From NCBI RefSeq assembly GCF_030373185.1, contig NZ_JAUCZH010000008.1, forward strand, positions 217,606 through 281,605: a stretch of DNA of 64,000 nucleotides, written 5' to 3'. This DNA is from Tabrizicola sp. (GTDB lineage Bacteria > Pseudomonadota > Alphaproteobacteria > Rhodobacterales > Rhodobacteraceae). Shown piece by piece: positions 21,766 through 22,736 of this stretch. The translations under genes and the position numbers were made by a program. Under the pieces are notes generated by a model. The model did not search any database and was not told the DNA's origin. It worked only from the letters and a program-made list of their open reading frames with translations. Positions within the stretch are counted from its first letter, which is position 1, and each line of letters starts with the position of its first letter.

Positions 21766-21847
21766 GTCGTCCCCGCCGCAGTTCGCCGGACTATCCGGCG
21801 CGAACGAGCGATGTGCAAGGAGGGGCAATGTGGACGGGAAAGGAGGG

Positions 21848-21883
21848 GCGGCGACCCCAAGGGAGGAGGAGAGGGGCCGCCGC
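21848..21883 (-). ncRNA. CcsR-like hairpin 8
   Basis: GCGGCGGCCCC-TCTCCTCCTCCCTT-GGGGTCGCCGC, 11 bp with one G.U. Confidence 0.8.
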
Positions 21884-21890
21884 AATTTCA

Positions 21891-21918
21891 GGTGTCCAAG
21901 GGAGGAGGAGAGAACACC
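21891..21918 (-). ncRNA. CcsR-like hairpin 7 (short stem)
   Basis: GGTGT...CTCCTCCTCCC...ACACC, 5 bp. Confidence 0.6.
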
Positions 21919-21971
21919 CGAAGCCGAAGGCGCGCATCCAGCCCGACAGGACGGGCGCGCCGGAATGAGGG

Positions 21972-22006
21972 GCGGCGGCTCCAGGGAGGAGGAGAGGAGC
22001 CGCCGC
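21972..22006 (-). ncRNA. CcsR-like hairpin 6
   Basis: GCGGCGGCTCC-TCTCCTCCTCCCT-GGAGCCGCCGC, perfect 11 bp. Confidence 0.8.
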
Positions 22007-22013
22007 GGTATCA

Positions 22014-22040
22014 GACACCCAGGGAGGAGGAGAGGGCGCC
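22014..22040 (-). ncRNA. CcsR-like hairpin 5
   Basis: GGCGCCC-TCTCCTCCTCCCT-GGGTGTC, 7 bp with two G.U. Confidence 0.75.
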
Positions 22041-22074
22041 CAATGCTGTTGGGCCAATCGGCCCGAAGAAGTGG

Positions 22075-22109
22075 GCGGCGGCGCCCGGGAGGAGGATAGG
22101 CACCGCCGC
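22075..22109 (-). ncRNA. CcsR-like hairpin 4
   Basis: GCGGCGGTGCC-TATCCTCCTCCCG-GGCGCCGCCGC, 11 bp with one U.G. Confidence 0.8.
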
Positions 22110-22119
22110 AGTCTCAGAC

Positions 22120-22143
22120 GACCCAAGGGAGGAGGAGTGGGTC
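22120..22143 (-). ncRNA. CcsR-like hairpin 3
   Basis: GACCCA-CTCCTCCTCCCT-TGGGTC, perfect 6 bp stem. Confidence 0.75.
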
Positions 22144-22181
22144 ACCCGATGAGATGGAGCGCTTGGCCCCGTTGAAAAGAT

Positions 22182-22215
22182 GCGGCGATATCAGGGAGGA
22201 GGTTGATATCGCCGC
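22182..22215 (-). ncRNA. CcsR-like hairpin 2
   Basis: GCGGCGATATCA-ACCTCCTCCC-TGATATCGCCGC, perfect 12 bp stem. Confidence 0.85.
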
Positions 22216-22224
22216 TGATCGCAA

Positions 22225-22250
22225 AGGCCCCCGGGAGGAGGTGGAGGCCT
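22225..22250 (-). ncRNA. CcsR-like hairpin 1 (promoter-proximal)
   Basis: AGGCCTCC-A CCTCCTCCC-GGGGGCCT, 8 bp with one U.G. Confidence 0.75.
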
Positions 22251-22259
22251 CACGAAAAC

Positions 22260-22475
22260 TCACTTGCCGTAGGCGGCCTCATGCGCGATCCCGGTGATCG
22301 AAGCGCGGGCAATCCCCAGATCCGCCAGTTCGCGGTCGGTCAGGGCATTTAACTCGCTGACAGTCTGGCTGTAGACGCGACGCTGCTGGACCGCGGTCAC
22401 GACGACATCCTTCAGGAACGCGACGCGGTCCATGAAGCCCTTGCGGGCAATGCGATTGGTGTTCACGTAAGCCAT
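22260..22475 (-). CDS. DUF1127 small protein, CcaF1-like (71 aa)
   Basis: MAYVNTNRIARKGFMDRVAFLKDVVVTAVQQRRVYSQTVSELNALTDRELADLGIARASITGIAHEAAYGK. Confidence 0.9.
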   Translation of the reverse strand: MAYVNTNRIARKGFMDRVAFLKDVVVTAVQQRRVYSQTVSELNALTDRELADLGIARASITGIAHEAAYGK

Positions 22476-22736
22476 GTCTCTCAAGCCTCTCAAAGTCGCC
22501 AGCACCGTTCTTCCGTGCTGTTAGGGGTAACATGGGCCACTTGCTGCAACTGCACAATACCGGCGTGTTGCAATGCCGCCATGCAGCATTCGCATGGCTG
22601 CGTTCACAAGTTTGTCATGATTTCTCAGCGCCTTCGCCGGAATTTTGAGCATTTGGTCAACAGCCCTTGCCACAACCCTTGCCTCTGTGCGCAAAGATCA
22701 CGACCTTAGTAGAAATCTTGTGCGGTGGAGGAAACG

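Follow-up and report, generated by a model that had tools for sequence, protein, structure and literature searches.

The minus-strand locus described here very probably corresponds, as its orthologue, to the ccaF1-CcsR1-4 operon of Rhodobacter sphaeroides; it would be stress-induced, with small RNAs (sRNAs) that are predicted to block ribosome-binding sites of the GGGAGGAG type. Within the 64,000-nucleotide stretch of Tabrizicola sp. DNA that was analysed (the window), a short DUF1127 gene lies directly 5' of a hairpin array on the same strand. The array is the usual CcsR1-4 set, and thus belongs, as an ordinary and unexpanded case, to a stress-response RNA family that is already known. With it, one more clear ccaF1-CcsR1-4 operon is added to those outside R. 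sphaeroides, in this case from the genus to which Rhodobacter calidifons belongs; the copy-number doubling claimed in the initial annotation proves to be spurious.

The first gene encodes a DUF1127 protein that shares 62% identity with a 71-aa protein of Cereibacter johrii. Its start is backed by 71-aa homologues in R. calidifons, Tabrizicola and Pseudotabrizicola, which, together with the Pfam match (Table 1), bear out the reading frame as initially annotated. The stop codon is followed after 18 nt by the first loop motif in the window, R. calidifons and C. johrii alike. The motif CCTCCTCCC occurs exactly eight times on the minus strand, from 22241 to 21861, compared to a mean of 0.91 expected by chance in the whole window; a count of eight was not reached in any of 100 shuffles. 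All nine nucleotides of the motif are unpaired in each of the eight predicted hairpin loops, hereafter CCUCCUCCC loops, in agreement with the earlier statement that every loop carries it. The loop-to-loop distances of 39, 67, 40, 65, 38, 84 and 39 nt divide the array into four pairs, with 38-40 nt inside a pair and 65-84 nt from pair to pair, and each pair forms a two-hairpin module with a fold z-score of -4.1 to -6.3. Counted with standard pairs, one mismatch tolerated and an upper limit of 13 bp, stem length is 11-12 bp for all eight hairpins; in the minimum-energy fold, the first hairpin of unit 1 contains a single bulge. The variation in stem length from 5 to 12 bp noted in the initial annotation is absent, and with it falls the functional diversification that had been read from it.

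Table 1. Features of the ccaF1-CcsR locus in the window
Feature	Position	Strand	Evidence
Conserved upstream block, ~80 nt	22517..22597	-	MAFFT of upstream regions, ten genomes
Candidate promoter TTGTGC-N17-CATGTT (-35/-10-like)	22557-22552 / 22534-22529	-	Set by ATTGTGCA..TGCAGCA and CCATGTTACCCCTAACA
ccaF1 homologue, 71-aa DUF1127 protein	22260..22475	-	Pfam PF06568, E 4.9e-11
CcsR unit 1, CCUCCUCCC in both loops	22177..22259	-	RF02791 1-83, 64.6 bits, E 2.2e-15; z -5.15
CcsR unit 2	22070..22155	-	RF02791 1-83, 50.3 bits, E 3.8e-11; fold z -4.12
CcsR unit 3	21967..22049	-	RF02791 1-83, 46.9 bits, E 3.7e-10; fold z -4.36
CcsR unit 4	21843..21924	-	RF02791 1-83, 46.4 bits, E 5.1e-10; fold z -6.27
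CCTCCTCCC starts (+ coordinates)	21861, 21900, 21984, 22022, 22087, 22127, 22194, 22233	-	

A relaxed Rfam search with the 83-position, two-hairpin CcsR1 model (RF02791, 'Conserved CCUCCUCCC motif stress-induced RNA 1') revealed four end-to-end matches in the locus, with E-values of 2.2e-15 to 5.1e-10, and these are the only matches in the whole genome. The array therefore consists of four two-hairpin units, not eight copies, and the full-length match of every unit, behind a homologous DUF1127 gene, confirms the identity as CcaF1 plus CcsR (cuckoo) RNAs that had been proposed. At the Rfam gathering threshold no match was found at the locus, because all four units score under the required 65.3 bits; unit 1 misses it by 0.7 bits. 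The covariance-model scan suggested as a check in the initial annotation thus places the four units far above chance, though below the gathering score. Among 61 sampled related genomes, 57 have a significant RF02791 match and two pass the gathering threshold. The family is probably under-annotated, with a cut-off so strict that it shuts out nearly all homologues and leaves almost all relatives unannotated.

Comparison of the copy number depends on what is counted in R. sphaeroides. The sRNA RSs0680a of that species is now named CcsR1. Consistent with this equivalence, both are co-transcribed with RSP_6037 (PMC3320616, PMC8625941). As RSs0680a has two stem-loops with an anti-Shine-Dalgarno (anti-SD) motif in each (Reinkensmeier et al. 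2011, PMC3927594), four CcsR RNAs amount to eight hairpins. The nearest named genome in the comparison set, C. johrii, served as a stand-in for R. sphaeroides; its reaction-centre L subunit PufL is 100% identical to the R. sphaeroides query sequence. Its locus (L151) has eight loops spaced by 39, 66, 37, 76, 39, 74 and 39 nt, which correspond to four units. The near identity of C. johrii units 3 and 4 points to a recent duplication within that array, or to gene conversion there. The alleged expansion arose because the hairpins here had been set against two-hairpin sRNAs in R. sphaeroides: four units stand against four. The eight hairpins of the initial annotation, each with its unpaired motif, are indeed present, but do not represent eight sRNAs. 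Its view that every hairpin is processed into an sRNA of its own, giving twice the R. sphaeroides number, could draw on the individual stability of all eight, and is nevertheless very unlikely, given the pairing of loops by short linkers inside units and long linkers outside, the exact span of the two-hairpin model over each pair, the eight loops of C. johrii and the two stem-loops of the R. sphaeroides sRNA.

In relatives, at least one motif pair was found in 219 of 298 genomes of a family-wide sample, and the number of loops per operon ranges from 2 to 26. A hand count over the first 102 rows of this survey gave at least 33 genomes that exceed the four motif pairs of the window. R. calidifons (L152), from the window's own genus, has ten loops, or five units. 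By far the largest CcsR array in the sample, that of G166 (L018, C1 ~334949-336120), follows a DUF1127 ORF and consists of 26 tandem CCTCCTCCC loops; a multi-hairpin pattern recurs along it with a pitch of ~42-51 nt, and 23 of the 26 loops are fully unpaired in the fold. The count in related genomes that the initial annotation had proposed therefore shows that four units are not a high number. In addition, the stretches examined of L174 (G050), L167 (G108) and L163 (G275) contain 17, 16 and 14 loops, respectively, at an even pitch of mostly 40-52 nt and without the two-hairpin, long-linker rhythm of CcsR1-4.

Selection on stem pairing was assessed by swapping hairpin arms across a set of 73 two-hairpin units; these came from 21 loci, the window included, of which one gave no units. 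The own arms of hairpin 1 form 9.4 bp, compared to 6.1 (sd 0.2) bp for arms swapped across units, and those of hairpin 2 form 11.5 bp, compared to 7.6 (sd 0.26) bp. No permutation came near the observed pairing; as units from the same locus are related, the permutation serves as a yardstick and not as a probability. Since own arms pair far better than swapped ones, the stem sequences have changed while pairing was kept and the loop stayed invariant. G+C-rich tandem stems, and relatives with larger arrays of varying copy number, would also be expected of a series of Rho-independent terminators, or of a DNA repeat in decay that has no regulatory role. Such an origin is hardly credible, in view of the invariant 9-nt loop, the stems that diverge yet still pair, and the CcsR1 matches across the sampled genomes; moreover, no U-tracts were found 3' of the array stems. 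A simple scan for a stem plus U-tract likewise found no canonical intrinsic terminator directly 3' of unit 4.

A loop far more conserved than its stems would suit a protein-binding site as well, and in the closest relatives 18 nt lie between the stop codon of ccaF1 and the array. Both points are compatible with an array whose main role is that of a 3' UTR element of ccaF1, in RNA stability, in autoregulation or as a binding platform for CcaF1, rather than that of a source of trans-acting sRNAs. We regard this as unlikely, because in R. sphaeroides the CcsR RNAs are processed, accumulate as sRNAs in their own right and have effects in trans (PMC8307010, PMC8625941), the related NfeR1 silences ntrB by base pairing via the same loop (PMC10746234), and the motif is exactly anti-SD. 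The complementarity of the loop to GGAGG-type ribosome-binding sites, stated in the initial annotation, is correct.

The strongly conserved block upstream of the ccaF1 homologue comprises a CCATGC-N7-GCATGG inverted repeat, ATTGTGCA..TGCAGCA and CCATGTTACCCCTAACA, the latter two of which set the candidate promoter (Table 1). No sigma-70-type consensus site was found in the upstream region. In R. sphaeroides the operon has an RpoHI/RpoHII promoter (PMC3320616, PMC10253847), and by analogy the upstream block appears compatible with a promoter of this type. The box ATTGTGCA-N3-GCAGCA has its only exact genomic match at this locus. It was also considered as the mark of a wider regulon, an idea that was dropped because sites with fewer than two mismatches occur genome-wide only here. 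The conservation of the block across ten genomes, inverted repeat included, extends beyond what a promoter alone would need, and the block is possibly the binding site of a second regulator.

Putative targets were searched across the genome with the pattern GGGAGGAG-N4-11-ATG. At SD distance from an ATG, 14 GGGAGGAG sites were found, compared to two for a reversed-pattern control. The genes behind them include pdhA (E1_dh, E 4e-110), acs (AMP-binding and ACAS_N) and an aldehyde dehydrogenase gene, in addition to those for an FCSD flavoprotein, a BPD permease, DctQ, SBP_bac_5, TctC, NMT1 and DctP; a second DctQ gene has a TTG start preceded by GGGAGGAGG. The start sites of pdhA and acs (L176, L186) each carry GGGAGGAG, the 8-nt complement of the CcsR loop. 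Transport components account for 6 of 12 genes behind GGGAGGAG compared to 1 of ~15 behind an ordinary AAGGAGG SD (Fisher p 0.024), an excess that is no more than suggestive, given the small numbers and a classification done partly by eye. By our own count, GGGAGG precedes pdhA in 10 of 15 array-bearing genomes and in 3 of 10 others (Fisher p 0.11), and C. johrii pdhA is preceded by GGGAGG only. The target search with the loop complement, proposed in the initial annotation, thus yielded pdhA, acs and uptake genes, but conservation of the pdhA site is uneven, and targeting of pdhA therefore stays a prediction.

The effects reported for CcsR1-4 in R. sphaeroides concern the pyruvate dehydrogenase complex and flhR, and maturation of these RNAs involves RNase E and CcaF1 (PMC8307010, PMC8625941, PMC10253847). 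NfeR1 silences ABC-transporter mRNAs as well as ntrB through the same loops (PMC10746234; transporter targets also PMC7143759). The predicted targets show a notable match both to the pyruvate dehydrogenase effect reported for CcsR (PMC8307010) and to the NfeR1 transporter targets.

For the transcription, processing, targeting and physiology of the locus, we infer the following scheme. Transcription would be driven, as in R. sphaeroides, by a stress sigma factor (RpoHI/RpoHII) and would yield a single transcript composed of the ccaF1 mRNA, encoding a 71-aa DUF1127 RNA-binding protein, and a 3' UTR of four ~83-nt two-hairpin units. By analogy with the same species, RNase E would cleave the linkers and thereby set four sRNAs free, a maturation that CcaF1 would modulate. 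The two CCUCCUCCC loops of each sRNA may then pair with GGGAGGAG-type ribosome-binding sites and block 30S binding, which would lower the translation and mRNA stability of the targets. Given that the start sites with the best match are those of pdhA, acs, an aldehyde dehydrogenase gene and several genes for substrate uptake, the operon would probably lower both carbon uptake and pyruvate/acetyl-CoA flux when oxidative or heat stress occurs. More speculatively, and with considerable doubt, the CcsR array may represent a tunable 'dose' of anti-SD loops directed at a single class of SDs that are unusually long (GGGAGGAG). If so, these long SDs would mark uptake and pyruvate/acetyl-CoA genes, and the number of loops per operon would set the strength with which carbon intake is throttled under stress. 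The by-products of the analysis, namely the target list headed by pdhA and acs, the upstream block and the copy-number survey, are perhaps more useful than the locus itself.

Among known systems, the ar14/NfeR1 RNAs of Rhizobiales (Rfam RF02344) share hypervariable stems and the same anti-SD loop, but have three hairpins per RNA and their own sigma-70 promoter (PMC10746234, PMC7143759), ar14 being a stand-alone gene. Membership in ar14 was rejected, as the window units have two hairpins each, stand in an array behind ccaF1 and score 43-50 bits with the ar14 model, below its gathering threshold. RFMSmelA075 and RFMSmelA099 of Sinorhizobium meliloti also have CCUCCUCCC anti-SD loops, variable stems and a proposed role in blocking ribosome-binding sites, but differ in having three and four hairpins per transcript, respectively, in belonging to Rhizobiales and in occurring in several copies per genome (PMC3927594). 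The cuckoo RNA family and its CIN1 locus (Reinkensmeier & Giegerich 2015), as described in PMC10253847, have the same order of a DUF1127 gene followed by CcsR-like sRNAs, and that description offers no feature that distinguishes the window locus from them. Compared to the R. sphaeroides ccaF1-CcsR1-4 operon, for which a terminator is reported at the 3' end (PMC10253847), the window locus differs in its stem sequences, in having no unit at the Rfam gathering score and in having no clear intrinsic terminator. Nevertheless, as judged via the Rfam model and C. johrii, the two share a leading 71-aa DUF1127 gene, four two-hairpin units, the loop motif and the spacing.
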